Source: a bacterium
Lineage (GTDB): Bacteria; Zhuqueibacterota; Zhuqueibacteria; Residuimicrobiales; Oceaniaggregativiventaceae
Direction: 5' to 3'
Assembly: GCA_029565675.1 (NCBI GenBank)
Contig: JAKQNP010000033.1
Location: forward strand, 1-61,973
Length of the DNA stretch: 61,973 bases
How positions within the stretch are numbered: the first letter of the stretch is position 1; every line of letters starts with the position of its first letter. The notes under the pieces were generated by a model. The model saw nothing but the letters and a program-made list of their open reading frames with translations, was not told the origin of the DNA and ran no database searches. Positions 3,725-11,432 of the stretch are shown here, in pieces. A program made the position numbers and the translations under genes.

Positions 3725-5908
3725 TCAGGTGCGCCGGACGGCGTCGAATTTGCATACATTGTAACATTCGCTGCACTTGATGCAGCGGCTCTGGTCGATC
3801 ACATGCGGCTGCCGGGCAGCGCCGGCGATGCAAGAGACCGGGCAGCGCCGGGCGCACAGGGTGCAGCCCGTACATTTGTCAATGTCGATTTCGTAGCGGA
3901 TGAGCTGGGTGCATTTGTGCGCCGGACAGCGCTTGTCGCGGATGTGGATAATGAACTCTTCGGTAAAATTTTCCAGTGCGCTCAGAACCGGATTGGGGGC
4001 AGTCTGGCCGAGGCCGCACAGCGAAGTTTTTTGGATCAGCTTGCCCAAACGGCGAAGCTTGTCGAGATCGGCCATTTCCCCTTTGCCCTGTGTGATGCGC
4101 TCGAGGATTTCCAGCATTCGCAAGGTGCCCTCGCGGCAAGGCACACATTTGCCGCAAGATTCGCTCTGGGTGAATTCGAGAAAGAATTTGGATGTGGCGA
4201 CCATGCAATCCTCGTCGTCGAGCACGATCATGCCGCCGGATCCCATGATGGAACCGATTTCCGACAGGGTTTCATATTCCACCATCGTATCCAGGCGATC
4301 GGCCGGGATGCAGCCTCCGGACGGCCCGCCGGTCTGCACTGCTTTCAGAGTGTGTCCTTCGCGCAGGCCGCCGCCGATATCGAAAATGATATCACGCAGC
4401 CTCGTGCCCATCGGCACCTCGACCAGACCGGTGTTGAGAACTTTGCCGGCCAGGGCAAAAACCTTGGTGCCGCGGCTGTTCTTGGTGCCGATGCGGCTGA
4501 ACCAGTCGGCGCCATAGAGCATGATCGTCGGTACATTGGCCCAGGTTTCGACATTGTTGATAACCGTGGGGTGCCCCCACAAGCCCGATTGAGTGGGATA
4601 GGGGGGCCGGATGCGCGGCTGGCCGCGTTTGCCCTCGATCGAATAAATCAACGCGGTTTCCTCACCGCAGACAAAAGCGCCAGCTCCCAAACGAATTTCG
4701 ATGTCGAAATTTAAGCCCGAATCGAGGATGTTCTTGCCGAGCAGGCGGTGCTTGTGCGCAGTGGCAATCGCTTTTTCCAGGCGCTCGATCGCCAGGGGAT
4801 ATTCAGCGCGGATATAGATATATCCCTGACGGGCGCCGACCGCGACCGCACCGATGGTCATCCCTTCGAGAACGATGAAAGGATCACCTTCCAGCGCGCT
4901 GCGGTCCATGAACGCCCCGGGATCCCCTTCGTCGGCGTTGCAGACCACGTAGCGGATCGGATCATCGGTATAAGTCACGGCGTTGATCCATTTCTGGCCG
5001 GTGGGAAACCCGCCGCCGCCGCGTCCGCGCAGTCCGGATTTGAGAATCGTCTGACGCACCGCATCCGGATCGTTGGTTTCCAGCACCTGTGCCAGAGCCT
5101 CGTAACCTTTGTTGAGGACATACTCCGGCAGACTTTCCGGATCGATCAAGCCGCTGTTGCGCAAGGTTAAACGGGTTTGTTTGTTAAAGAACGCCACGTC
5201 GCCGTACATCGAAAAGAACTGTTCGGTGATAAAATCGGTGTGATAGCGATGCTTGACGTTGACCTGATGGTCAACAAAATGCGATTTGACGATTTCGTCG
5301 AGATCCTCTTCGGTTTCGAACCGGTAAAGGGTGCGTTCCGGGAAAACCATCATCACATGTTGCTTGCCGACTTTTTCCTTTGGACACAAACCCAGACAGC
5401 CGCTATGAAAAATCCGCACCAGATCTTCCGCAATATTGTGAGAACACAACAGCCGCTTGAGCATCTCTTCTGAATCCTGCGCATTCTCGTGACTGCAGCG
5501 ATGCGATGAACACATGGTCACCACATAGCTGTAAAGAGTGTCGGTCTTTTTGTCCAGGATCAGGTTGGGAATCGGTTTGCCGCCGATCACATGGTGCTGG
5601 AAAATTTCCTGTACTTTGTTGGGCGTGACCTGTTCGTATTTGATCGGGATCTGTCCTGGGAAAAAAACACCGACGATCGGTTCGCGGGCGCAGCGGCCTG
5701 TGCAGCCGGTCTGCTTGAGCAGGATGTCCTGGCGGCCGCTCGCCCTGATCAATTTGTCGAACTCTTGCCTGACTTGATCGGCTCCGGCGGCATTTTCACA
5801 GGTCGCGGATCCGACCTGGACGATGATTTTTTGCTTGTCGCCCCGAGCAGTGCGCTCCTGGTCAAATTGGCGATAGAGCGTTTTATAGAAAGCTAGCGCC
5901 TGACCCAT
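3725..5908 (-). CDS. hydB: NADH-dependent [FeFe] hydrogenase, NuoF-like flavoprotein HydB, with two N-terminal [2Fe-2S] domains
   Basis: This 727-residue protein is the NADH- and FMN-binding subunit. The core (about 240-620) is NuoF-like, with the glycine-rich [13 protein letters not shown] loop, [13 protein letters not shown], and the [12 protein letters not shown] cluster motif. The C-terminus is a two-[4Fe-4S] ferredoxin ([12 protein letters not shown] and [11 protein letters not shown]). Unusually there are two thioredoxin-like [2Fe-2S] domains in front. The first has Cys37, 69 and 73 only. The second has the full set, Cys133 and 138 (CSSHRC) plus Cys171 and 175 (CLGLC). The start at 5908 (MGQALAF) has a GAGGAA ribosome binding site; a longer reading to 6004 looks untranslated. 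It is the first gene of the operon, 76 bases ahead of hydA, so the order is B-A-C. Confidence 0.92.
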
Positions 5909-7659: not shown

Positions 7660-8135
7660 GACTTTTCTCCAGCTTGGTTTCTATCGGTTGGCAAGAATCT
7701 GCGGACAAGGTATTGCCAAATGAATTGAAGGCAAAATGAACAGGATTCAGAAAACTTACAAAATAATTGCCTGCAATGCAAAAGAAAAGTGATCATTCGA
7801 TTATTTTTTTCTCACCCGCCGGGCATGGCCGTCTGCCGGGGTAATCAATGGTTTTCCTGTTTTTCTGAAAATTTATCTTGCATTGTAAGGTGTTATTGGA
7901 CATTTTTAATTGTGGATTGATGTTCATTCCTTGCCAAACACTCCTCTCCCCATTGCTGGAATTTTTAACATGGAGCGACTCACCCTGTCTAATCCTGATG
8001 GAACCATTCAGTCTTGCATGTTCTTGAAGTTAAGTCCGGATTCGGCGGCAATCGAAACAAATACCTATCATTCTGCATCGATCCCTGGCCATCGGATAGG
8101 AGATGCCGCTGTCGTGCGAAATTGGAGGTGTTGTG
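7660..8135. other. divergent intergenic region
   Basis: About 475 bases lie between the divergent acyl-ACP synthetase (minus) and the protease-inhibitor operon (plus). It must hold promoters for both, but I see no element close enough to a known consensus to name. It includes AT-rich tracts near 7790-7810 and 7855-7910. The short plus-strand open frame at 7910-8188 overlaps the inhibitor gene start and has no good ribosome binding site, so I do not call it. Confidence 0.5.
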
Positions 8136-8516
8136 ATGAGCAAATTCGCCGCATTGTTTTTTCTGATCCCGGCTTTGATGATTTGTGAGCAGCAAGAGAT
8201 GCCGACCTGCCTGCAAAAAACTGACGCGGAAAAAACCGTTGCCATGAGCGTCCACCAGGAGTTTGAAGTGCAACTTGCGAGCAACCCAACCACCGGATAT
8301 CGCTGGAGCTGGATTGCAGCGGACAGCGCGATTCTGCAGATGAAAAAACGAGAGTACCGATCTGAATCGGAATTGGTTGGTGGCGGCGGCAACGAGCGGT
8401 TTTTGTTTGCCGCCGTCAGCCCGGGCAAAACCGACCTGATTCTGGTCTATCACCGGCCGTGGGAAAAACCTCTCGCGCCGGTCGATTCTTTTATCGTGCA
8501 CATTGTGGTTAAATAG
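8136..8516 (+). CDS. chagasin-family (I42) cysteine protease inhibitor
   Basis: A 126-residue secreted protein of the chagasin/I42 family, small immunoglobulin-like proteins that block papain-family cysteine proteases by inserting three loops into the active site. All three loop motifs are visible: NPTTGY (50-55), the glycine-rich GGGGNERF loop (82-89) and RPWE (107-110). The N-terminus is hydrophobic, with a possible but non-ideal lipobox (LMIC, Cys17), so it is exported and may be lipid-anchored. The start at 8136 follows a strong GGAGGT site; an upstream in-frame ATG at 8103 lacks one. The next gene, 11 bases downstream, encodes a papain-type protease, which is the obvious partner. Confidence 0.88.
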   Translation: MSKFAALFFLIPALMICEQQEMPTCLQKTDAEKTVAMSVHQEFEVQLASNPTTGYRWSWIAADSAILQMKKREYRSESELVGGGGNERFLFAAVSPGKTDLILVYHRPWEKPLAPVDSFIVHIVVK

Positions 8517-8527
8517 GGAGGCAGGAG

Positions 8528-9469
8528 ATGAACAAACATGCATGGATTTTGCTGGTGTTGGTCCTGGGCTTGCTGACCATCAGCCAGCAAAGCGATCGAG
8601 GTTCGACGGATGAGCCTGTGGCACAACGGTTGTCGCGGCTGCAGAGTGAAATCGAAAAGCGCAGCTCTTCCTTCACCGTGAGCGATAATCCGGCGATGCA
8701 GATTCCCCTTAATAAGCTTTGCGGATTTCGCGCCCCGGATGGCTGGCAACAACGAGCTGTCGAGATCAACATCGCCACCAGCCAACCTCCGACTCTGCGC
8801 ACTGCCTTGGCGGCCTTGCCGGCGAAATGGGACTGGCGCGCCGAAAACGGCGTTACCCGGATCAAGAACCAGGGTGCTTGCGGCAGTTGTTGGGCTTTTG
8901 CCACAGTCGGCAGTTTTGAATCGCTGCTCTTGATTAAACAAAGCCTGGATGTCGATCTGTCCGAGCAGTTTCTTGTCTCCTGCAACGACAACGGCTGGGG
9001 CTGTGACGGCGGTTTTTGGGCGCATGCGATGTTGATGAGTCCAGGCGCCGTGCTTGAGACGGATTTCCCCTATGCGGCAGCCGATCTCGCCTGTGGCGGG
9101 CCCTACACTTACCCCTACCAGTTGAACAATTGGAGTTACGTCGACGGTGACAGCGATATACCCAGCGACGAAGATCTCAAACAAGCCATCTACAGCTATG
9201 GCCCGGTTTGCGCGGCCGTCTATGTGGGCGACTATTTTCAGGGCTACTCAAGCGGCGTGTTCGACATCGAAGAGTCCAGGCCTTCTGGTTTTCTCTGTGC
9301 AGGCGCACCGAAACCCCCCAATCATGCAATCATGCTCGTGGGATGGGACGATTCGCAAAACGCCTGGATTTTGAAAAACAGCTGGGGCGAAGGGTGGGGA
9401 CTCGACGGCTATATGCTGATTGAATATGGCATCAACCAGGTCGGCTATGCAGCGGTGGTGGCGTACTGA
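8528..9469 (+). CDS. papain-family (C1) cysteine protease, secreted
   Basis: A 313-residue cysteine protease. The order is signal peptide (1-20), a short propeptide-like stretch (to about 95), then the mature C1A domain. The catalytic set is complete: the oxyanion Gln115 and nucleophile Cys121 in the QGACGSCWAF block, His266 in NHAIMLVGWD, and Asn284 in KNSWGEGWG. Further cysteines (SCNDNGWGCDGG) fit the disulfides of the fold. The propeptide is too short to be a classical I29 domain, so control by the neighbouring inhibitor is plausible. The start follows GGAGGCAGGAG, 11 bases after the inhibitor stop, so the two form an operon. The target may be extracellular protein for nutrition; this is inference. 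Confidence 0.93.
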   Translation: MNKHAWILLVLVLGLLTISQQSDRGSTDEPVAQRLSRLQSEIEKRSSSFTVSDNPAMQIPLNKLCGFRAPDGWQQRAVEINIATSQPPTLRTALAALPAKWDWRAENGVTRIKNQGACGSCWAFATVGSFESLLLIKQSLDVDLSEQFLVSCNDNGWGCDGGFWAHAMLMSPGAVLETDFPYAAADLACGGPYTYPYQLNNWSYVDGDSDIPSDEDLKQAIYSYGPVCAAVYVGDYFQGYSSGVFDIEESRPSGFLCAGAPKPPNHAIMLVGWDDSQNAWILKNSWGEGWGLDGYMLIEYGINQVGYAAVVAY

Positions 9470-9650: not shown

Positions 9651-11432
9651 CTAGTCCATCCGCACGATCTTGCCGGCGCCGCTGAAATCCAAAATCATCT
9701 TTTCCCCGCCGTGACGGATTTCCAGCTTTTGACTGCCAAGCTCGGCCTGCAAAAACGGGCCGTGGAAAAAACCATAATCGGCAAAATCGACCACCTCGCC
9801 ATTCAGCAAGCGGTCGCCGGCAAAAGAGAAAGTCATGACATCACCCGCCGGAGTGGTATAGCTGACCAGCCCGGTTTCGTTGAAGGTGTCGTGTACCGGG
9901 GTGGTGCGGCGCATGACTGCCTTGAATTCATTCAAGTCGGCAAAATTTTGAGCCTGTTCGACTTGCACCACGCAGCCGTTGCGCAGAGCATCGCTGCGCA
10001 GGCGGAAGCCGTGTTCCTCTTCCAACCATCGATACGGCTGCAGCGGATAAAAGGCGATAAAGGTTTGGTCGCTGCGGCAAAAAATCCAGCCAGAATCATC
10101 CTCTTCACGTGCCTGCAAATCGCGTGGAAAAAATCCGTCCACGTGCGGATAAAGCGCGCCGGTCGGGATTTCATACAAGACAATGATCGCATTGCGGTGC
10201 TGAAAGGTTTTCTCATAGGGCGAACTGCTCGCCCACTTGCCCTCATCGGCGTAATAGGTATGGGCATTGATGACCTGATCGGTGGAGAATTTCATCTCTT
10301 CAGGAAAAAACATGCCCATATCTTCCTGACCGACAAATGGATGGACAGTGAAGAGGGTGCCGTAACGGCTGGATCCGACAAAACTGACGTCCCAGGTGTG
10401 TTGCTGGATCGGTTGCAGCACCGCACCGCCCATCATCGAGCCAAGGGCAAAATCCTTGCACATATAGGTGGTCTTGTAAACCCGCGGATTGCGTTCGTTG
10501 CCGAGGCGCAGAACATGGCGGACCCGTTTGGTCTCATAGTGCACATAAGGCTTTTCCCTGTCGGTGCCTATGCGGTAGAGGATTTCCGGCAGGATGAAAT
10601 CGCTCAACGCGGCTGGCAAAAAGATCGAGTTGAACATCGGTTCATCGGTCTGTGCGAAAAAGAGCCAACCCCAATAATTCATTTCCGATGCGGGGTGGCG
10701 TTTGAGGATCAAGCGATCGGGATACTCGCGGCTGTGCGCGCCGGTGTAGACGCCTTGCAGGTGCTCGACTCCGTAATCGGCGATGAGCCACAGAAGAATA
10801 CCGTGGATTTTTTCCTTGAGAACCGGATCCTCGGTGAATTGGTACAGGCCGAACAGACCGGAGAGAAAGACCGCATGATAAGTGGGTGAATCGAATTCGC
10901 CCTGCCCGATGGTGGTGGTCAGGCGCAGCCAATCCTCGAACCAGCCCTCTGCTTCGCGGCGGTTTTCCGCAGCGGATTTGCCGGTGAACCACTTGTCAGC
11001 CGGCAGATCGGCAAAAGCCTGCGCAGCCAGATAGAGACCGGTATAGTACAGGGTTAGATGGTTTTCGGTGTCGCCGCGATAGAAATTAGCGTTGCCCAGG
11101 AGCTCGCGCACGCTGTTGCGCGTTTCGATCGGCAACCACTCTTCAGCTGTGCAATAGCCGATCATGAGCCGATAAAAATGAAACATGCTCAACGGGGTGC
11201 CGGCAGCTTCATCGAGCAGATCCTGGAACATTTGCAGGCCGTTTTCCCGGTTTTCGCCGTGCACAATGCGGCTGGCGGCGATCAAAAAATTCCTTTGGCT
11301 GGTGGTGTCGGCCCAGTTCATGATCAGCTCACAGCGTTCCTGATAGGCGCTGGTGATCGGGCTTGTGGCTTTGCTGCAAGCCGCTCCCCATCCGATCAGA
11401 AAGGCACAGCCGAGCAACATGAGATGACGCAT
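9651..11432 (-). CDS. lipoprotein of about 593 residues, possibly an alpha/alpha-toroid polysaccharide lyase or hydrolase
   Basis: I do not recognise the family with confidence. The ATG at 11432 gives a clear lipoprotein signal (MRHLMLLGCAFLIGWGAAC, Cys19) and has a GGAGGG site; an upstream extension would overlap the previous gene. The N-terminal half is rich in helical, aromatic segments (FYRLMIGYC, LTLYYTGLYLAAQAF, YHAVFLSGLFGLYQF), as in toroidal lyases and glycosidases. The C-terminal half is beta-rich with many Trp, Tyr and His residues, like the sandwich domain of heparinase- or alginate-lyase-type enzymes. It follows the BNR-repeat gene by 19 bases in the same direction, and a heparinase II/III gene sits 12 kb away, so a role in polysaccharide breakdown is plausible but unproven. 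Confidence 0.6.
   Translation of the reverse strand: MRHLMLLGCAFLIGWGAACSKATSPITSAYQERCELIMNWADTTSQRNFLIAASRIVHGENRENGLQMFQDLLDEAAGTPLSMFHFYRLMIGYCTAEEWLPIETRNSVRELLGNANFYRGDTENHLTLYYTGLYLAAQAFADLPADKWFTGKSAAENRREAEGWFEDWLRLTTTIGQGEFDSPTYHAVFLSGLFGLYQFTEDPVLKEKIHGILLWLIADYGVEHLQGVYTGAHSREYPDRLILKRHPASEMNYWGWLFFAQTDEPMFNSIFLPAALSDFILPEILYRIGTDREKPYVHYETKRVRHVLRLGNERNPRVYKTTYMCKDFALGSMMGGAVLQPIQQHTWDVSFVGSSRYGTLFTVHPFVGQEDMGMFFPEEMKFSTDQVINAHTYYADEGKWASSSPYEKTFQHRNAIIVLYEIPTGALYPHVDGFFPRDLQAREEDDSGWIFCRSDQTFIAFYPLQPYRWLEEEHGFRLRSDALRNGCVVQVEQAQNFADLNEFKAVMRRTTPVHDTFNETGLVSYTTPAGDVMTFSFAGDRLLNGEVVDFADYGFFHGPFLQAELGSQKLEIRHGGEKMILDFSGAGKIVRMD

Follow-up and report, generated by a model that had tools for sequence, protein, structure and literature searches.

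In staphylococci, the papain-fold cysteine protease staphopain (family C47) is adjoined by the gene of its own inhibitor, staphostatin (family I57), and in Streptococcus pyogenes the cysteine protease SpeB is adjacent to, and co-transcribed with, the small specific self-protection inhibitor Spi (PMC3462683). In Bacteroides, staphostatin-like inhibitor genes stop 12–14 bases upstream of some C10 protease genes; there the inhibitor is exported, maybe as a lipoprotein, and the protease keeps its propeptide (PMC3462683). Chagasins (family I42) are a different kind of inhibitor. In Trypanosoma cruzi, chagasin controls the organism's own C1A enzyme, cruzipain, and the binding mode of chagasins on C1A proteases is known from published complexes (PMC7863939). 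Among bacteria, Cip1 of Pseudomonas syringae is a secreted chagasin with NPTTG, GxGG, and RPW motifs that inhibits papain with a Ki of ~ 4 nM; most chagasin-bearing Pseudomonas genomes are without a C1A protease, and the role of most bacterial chagasins had not been elucidated as of 2016 (PMC5014320). A recent, broad survey of papain-family enzymes makes no mention of chagasin and leaves multidomain prokaryotic members unanalysed (PMC10380794).

The window, i.e., the whole stretch of DNA that was analysed (61,973 nucleotides), carries an I42 inhibitor gene directly followed by a papain-type protease gene. An earlier note on this DNA had described an inhibitor with all three binding loops lying 11 bases upstream of a C1A protease, and both Pfam and the sequence confirm this description. 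The features of the inhibitor gene and of the gap behind it are listed below, the ribosome-binding sites, the gap, and the signal sequence of the inhibitor being read from the sequence:

8124–8128, + strand: GGAGG, ribosome-binding site of the inhibitor gene
8136..8516, + strand: chagasin-family (I42) inhibitor gene, 126 aa, ATG at 8136, stop TAG at 8514–8516
N-terminus of the 126-aa I42 inhibitor: hydrophobic signal sequence
8184..8186, + strand: Cys17 of the inhibitor, at the end of the signal sequence; Cys in 9/10 aligned inhibitors
8283..8297, + strand: binding loop L2, NPTTG; N, P, T, and G invariant in the inhibitor alignment
8379..8390, + strand: binding loop L4, GGGG (GxGG type); GAPG in most relatives
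8454..8462, + strand: binding loop L6, RPW; R invariant and W in ≥ 90% of the inhibitor alignment
8517..8527, + strand: intergenic gap of 11 bases with GGGAGG, ribosome-binding site of the protease gene

The inhibitor matches the Pfam model Inhibitor_I42 (PF09394) with an E-value of 1.1e−22 and 80.6 bits (cut-off 27.2), and it was assigned to the chagasins on the basis of this score together with the presence of all three loops (NPTTG, GxGG, and RPW/F). The nearest solved structures found with phmmer were a bacterial ICP (2wgn, E 1e−13) and chagasin (E 9e−11), while the predicted I42 domain of a fused relative (locus L132, discussed below) is mostly beta. No relatives of the inhibitor were found in viral contigs. 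The Cys at the end of the signal sequence hints at a possible lipid anchor behind a non-canonical lipobox: the residue preceding it is I, R, M, T, or A in the inhibitors of the phylum (window and loci L004–L014), and such an anchor is uncertain because this residue is mostly not A, G, or S. Such a near-invariant Cys could mean that the phylum tolerates a relaxed lipobox, or it may have another cause.

The inhibitor and protease genes share the + strand, with − strand genes on either side, and therefore make up a two-gene unit of their own. The GGGAGG of the protease starts immediately after the stop codon of the inhibitor, and the spacing suggests that the two genes are co-transcribed; a scan for promoters and terminators at the locus returned counts at background level only. 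The whole genome contains one I42 gene and two C1A genes. As for the surroundings, the − strand gene at 3725–5908 encodes a NuoF-like subunit with NADH-binding (51K), SLBB, and ferredoxin domains and a thioredoxin-like 2Fe-2S N-terminus, as in NADH-dependent hydrogenases, and the − strand gene at 9654–11429, which is convergent with the protease gene, encodes a protein of ~ 590 aa without a Pfam match.

The protease gene is composed of the following parts:

8528..9469, + strand: C1A papain-type cysteine protease gene, 313 aa, ATG at 8528, stop at 9467–9469
8528..8584, + strand: signal peptide (~ residues 1–19), probably for Sec export; pattern common to all family members
8585..8815, + strand: propeptide (~ residues 20–96, ~ 77 aa), kept in paired and unpaired relatives
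8717..8725, + strand: propeptide motif Leu64-Cys65-Gly66, invariant in the alignment and aligned with the LCG of procathepsin B (1pbh)
8816..9466, + strand: mature catalytic domain (Gln115, Cys121, His266, Asn284), based on Pfam, alignments, and the predicted structure

The match to Pfam Peptidase_C1 (PF00112) has an E-value of 6.3e−48 and 164.2 bits, the PDB matches of the protease are cathepsin H/L, and its model shows a papain-like fold (VIA-align Z 20–23 against procathepsins). Gln115, Cys121, His266, and Asn284 are invariant across the family alignments, in agreement with the earlier description of a secreted enzyme with a full catalytic set.

The propeptide had also been called unusually short, which is correct relative to the cathepsin L (I29) type, because the first part of that type is missing, but not relative to the cathepsin B type, given its ~ 77 conserved residues. 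Its consensus is F.V..A...LCG...W, with F49, V51, A56, L64, C65, G66, W73, and A77 invariant in eight aligned paired relatives, and a profile built from the paired proteins finds it in 59/62 non-fused proteins from many phyla, related proteases with no inhibitor nearby. One genome (G016) encodes a protease of the same clade, propeptide included, and no I42 gene at all. When the propeptide profile was compared with all PDB chains, the best protease match was procathepsin B (1pbh), in register along the stretch TWQAGHN...LCG...LPASFD and weak (E 0.083). No I29/ERFNIN match was found for the full protease (E ≤ 0.01) or for five propeptides of the family (E ≤ 10), and no Pfam Propeptide_C1 match for five family members; the matches of the propeptide to DUF6689 and ribosomal L10 in Pfam, and to L10 in the PDB, were judged to be due to chance. 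The whole precursor of the window protease was predicted with a pLDDT of 74 and a pTM of 0.77, and the model (residues 28–313 or similar) superposes on procathepsins K, L, H, B, and X, its best 27 structural matches all being zymogens or pro-forms. Judged from this superposition, the window propeptide is, as modelled, of the zymogen type and would work like a cathepsin propeptide; no family membership is claimed for it. Its invariant Cys65 (8720–8722), within the LCG motif, may be compared with procathepsin X (1deu), in which, going by its PDB title, a covalent link joins the proregion and the active-site cysteine.

These observations bear on the proposal, put forward in the earlier note, that the chagasin does the propeptide's job in this pair and silences the protease during export. 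The ~ 77-aa propeptide does go without a Pfam I29 or Propeptide_C1 match, and in fused relatives the I42 domain occupies the propeptide's place. For the window pair, however, the idea had to be abandoned as very improbable: the eight invariant positions, LCG among them, lie well before the mature start, the propeptide is common to unpaired proteases and is procathepsin B-like in register, the model superposes on procathepsins, and G016 has the protease without any I42. That the propeptide would be too short to work was rejected on the same conservation, distribution, and superposition. Replacement does seem to apply to the fused relatives in other phyla, none of which (0/19) has a propeptide.

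The neighbourhood of I42 genes was surveyed in the phylum of the window, where I42 is present in 13 of 82 genomes and is followed directly downstream, on the same strand, by a C1A gene in 11 of these 13, which belong to several families. Relatives include Caldithrix sp. and candidate division KSB1. In genome G011, the I42 and C1A genes each lie at a contig start, as a split pair would, and G010 has a lone I42 gene and no proper C1A in the genome. Past the pair, the window and the compared relatives have no genes in common, and the spacing ranges from 11 bases in the window, the tightest, to ~ 39–157 in the other pairs; as the flanks differ and the spacing varies, it is the pair itself whose linkage is conserved. 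The paired proteases form a clade (support 100/99), and identities to the window protease are 50–60%. Co-occurrence in other genomes, the absence of which the earlier note had named as a refutation, was thus found across the phylum, and this conserved unit makes the protease very probably the partner that the inhibitor would bind.

A second combination was found in genome G068 (L222:1057–3304), one of the 11, where the I42 gene overlaps the reading frame of a different C1A lineage. This protease combines a CGCCW active site with a C-terminal tail (NYPNPFNP...LKVYDITGREV) like the sorting domains of type IX secretion, and it lacks the LCG propeptide motif. As I42 is here paired with a distinct C1A, the pairing arose at least two times in the phylum. 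Mere chance adjacency of two unrelated exported proteins, which the rarity of I42-C1A neighbours in two other sampled phyla might suggest, is contradicted by the survey (11/13 in the phylum, several families, altered spacing and flanks, plus the fusions described below) and retains next to no probability.

Outside the phylum, separate I42 genes mostly stand by themselves. The Chloroflexota sample has I42 in 38/201 genomes, and among its best-scoring loci a C1A gene lies within 1.5 kb in 2 of ~ 29, both on the opposite strand; in the sample of the Methanosarcina phylum I42 is present in 84/197 genomes, with no C1A gene within that distance among the best loci. The statement that bacterial chagasins are usually partnerless therefore stands, as most I42 genes sampled from bacteria and archaea lack a C1A neighbour. 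The pair is also not obligate, since I42 occurs without C1A (G010 and most Chloroflexota or Halobacteriota-type archaeal loci) and the paired type of protease occurs without I42 (G016). Adjacent separate genes with the inhibitor downstream of C1A were found in Methanosarcina, Methanosaeta, and Aminicenantes, and in Microcoleus a C1A gene is closely preceded by a triple I42 gene (L128:2852–3982). At the Chloroflexota loci L174, L181, and L236, I42 and C1A are on opposite strands, ~ 10–130 bases apart. Tandem chagasin proteins carry three I42 domains (the Microcoleus protein), four (L226:3946–5457), or two each (L232:1620–2906 and L228:2621–3727).

The two families were also found joined in one polypeptide. 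A scan for protease relatives in a single genome of each species, followed by a profile search of the loci, gave 19 single proteins with an I42 domain N-terminal to the C1A domain, mostly from Chloroflexota and also from Thermodesulfobacteriota, Myxococcota, and Pseudomonadota:

Fusion loci with I42 ahead of C1A and without a propeptide: L077, L080–L082, L085, L090, L092, L093, L095
Further fusion loci of this kind: L096, L107, L111, L113, L117, L122, L127, L132

A short linker leads from I42 to the start of the mature enzyme, with the exception of L082, which has a long insert. Fusions and pairs alike retain the inhibitory I42 loops. A propeptide is present in none of the 19 fused proteins vs. 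59 of the 62 non-fused ones (Fisher p ~ 1e−15), a p-value that is generous because the non-fused set was ranked by a query that included the propeptide, favouring members that bear one, while the absence in all fused proteins is unaffected by this. Within the Chloroflexota sample, fusions occur in four genomes (G083, G110, G251, and G265), and the remaining long I42 frames are tandem inhibitors without C1A. L092 additionally has a separate I42 gene, 4 bases upstream of its fused one.

The fusion at L132 (Anaerolineae) was predicted with 17 homologues, with a mean pLDDT of 85.7, a pTM of 0.82, and a floppy linker at residues 125–142. According to our calculation, a freely placed I42 domain would limit the pTM to at most ~ 0.66, and a value of 0.82 needs this domain to be placed relative to the protease within an expected error of ~ 4 Å; the prediction therefore fixes the inhibitor domain in place on the enzyme. 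The VIA-align rows for this model cover the protease domain, not the I42 fold, and it is by analogy with the known chagasin complexes (PMC7863939) that the I42 loops would enter the active site. In our judgement, chagasin has rather probably replaced the usual C1A propeptide in Chloroflexota and several other phyla, giving a zymogen that is silenced in cis and would be activated by cutting the linker; the operon of the window would be the trans counterpart, with propeptide and chagasin together.

Fusion and repeated linkage are classical signs of two domains acting on each other, and they also weigh against the main rival, namely that the inhibitor is aimed at foreign papain-type enzymes, from predators, competitors, or hosts, and lies beside the protease only because both act outside the cell. 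Cip1 sets a precedent, as it inhibits tomato immune proteases and most Pseudomonas have no C1A (PMC5014320), and the many I42 genes without a C1A neighbour would fit as well; set against the conserved linkage across the phylum, the second independent pairing in G068, and the cis fusions with C1A, a foreign target appears rather unlikely for the window inhibitor. A pair of toxin and immunity protein, with a protease directed at neighbouring cells and an inhibitor that shields kin, is quite improbable: it would suit an exported enzyme of small size next to an inhibitor that may be held at the membrane, and solo inhibitors could be immunity-only relics, but the protease, which starts with a plain signal peptide followed by a propeptide, has no delivery domain, adhesin, or toxin-type N-terminus, and at 50–60% identity to the window protein it is well conserved, unlike fast-changing toxins.

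The best explanation for what was observed, i.e., the two genes, the intact loops and catalytic residues, the linkage in the phylum, the conserved propeptide, and the fusions elsewhere, is a double control of the protease by a propeptide in cis and a chagasin in trans that would protect the envelope of the producer, to which we assign a probability of roughly two in three. The inhibitor gene comes first, so the inhibitor would be produced as, or before, the protease is, and it would be exported and perhaps held at the membrane. With signal sequences on both proteins, they may be expected to meet outside the cytoplasm. The protease would be exported as a zymogen, with the conserved propeptide along the active-site cleft, and once the propeptide is removed, free inhibitor would cap any protease still within the envelope via NPTTG, GxGG, and RPW. 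Such capping of internal protease would spare the producer's own proteins for as long as the enzyme has neither left nor outnumbered the inhibitor.

The conserved pair and the fusions point to a concrete endogenous target for bacterial chagasins and make their role a question that can be tested with two small proteins, and the fusions would amount to a new zymogen design in which a competitive inhibitor is borrowed as a propeptide. An earlier report of a bacterial I42-C1A pair or fusion was not found in the literature searched, mostly papers available without subscription, and domain databases may list the architecture uncommented.

Protease-inhibitor gene pairs are already known (staphopain, SpeB, and the C10 proteases of Bacteroides), but they consist of other protease and inhibitor families. 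In contrast to the staphostatin systems, the window inhibitor is a chagasin (matching only I42 in Pfam) and the protease belongs to C1A, not to C47 or C10; staphylococcal staphostatins act in the cytoplasm, whereas the window inhibitor has a signal sequence. SpeB, unlike the window protease, is a C10 enzyme, and Spi, which is thought to act in the cytoplasm, is not known to be a chagasin. Cip1 shares secretion and the three motifs with the window inhibitor but targets proteases of the host plant, in a genus in which most genomes lack C1A. The window protease resembles procathepsin B in having a short propeptide with an LCG-type motif on a C1A enzyme, and procathepsins B and X in its predicted zymogen fold; these are eukaryotic, however, the likeness in propeptide sequence is weak (E 0.08), and the Pfam propeptide model is unmatched. 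The families involved are those of chagasin and cruzipain, but the protozoan chagasins have no signal peptide (PMC5014320), and compared with that system, an exported bacterial I42-C1A gene pair together with cis fusions is a new arrangement.
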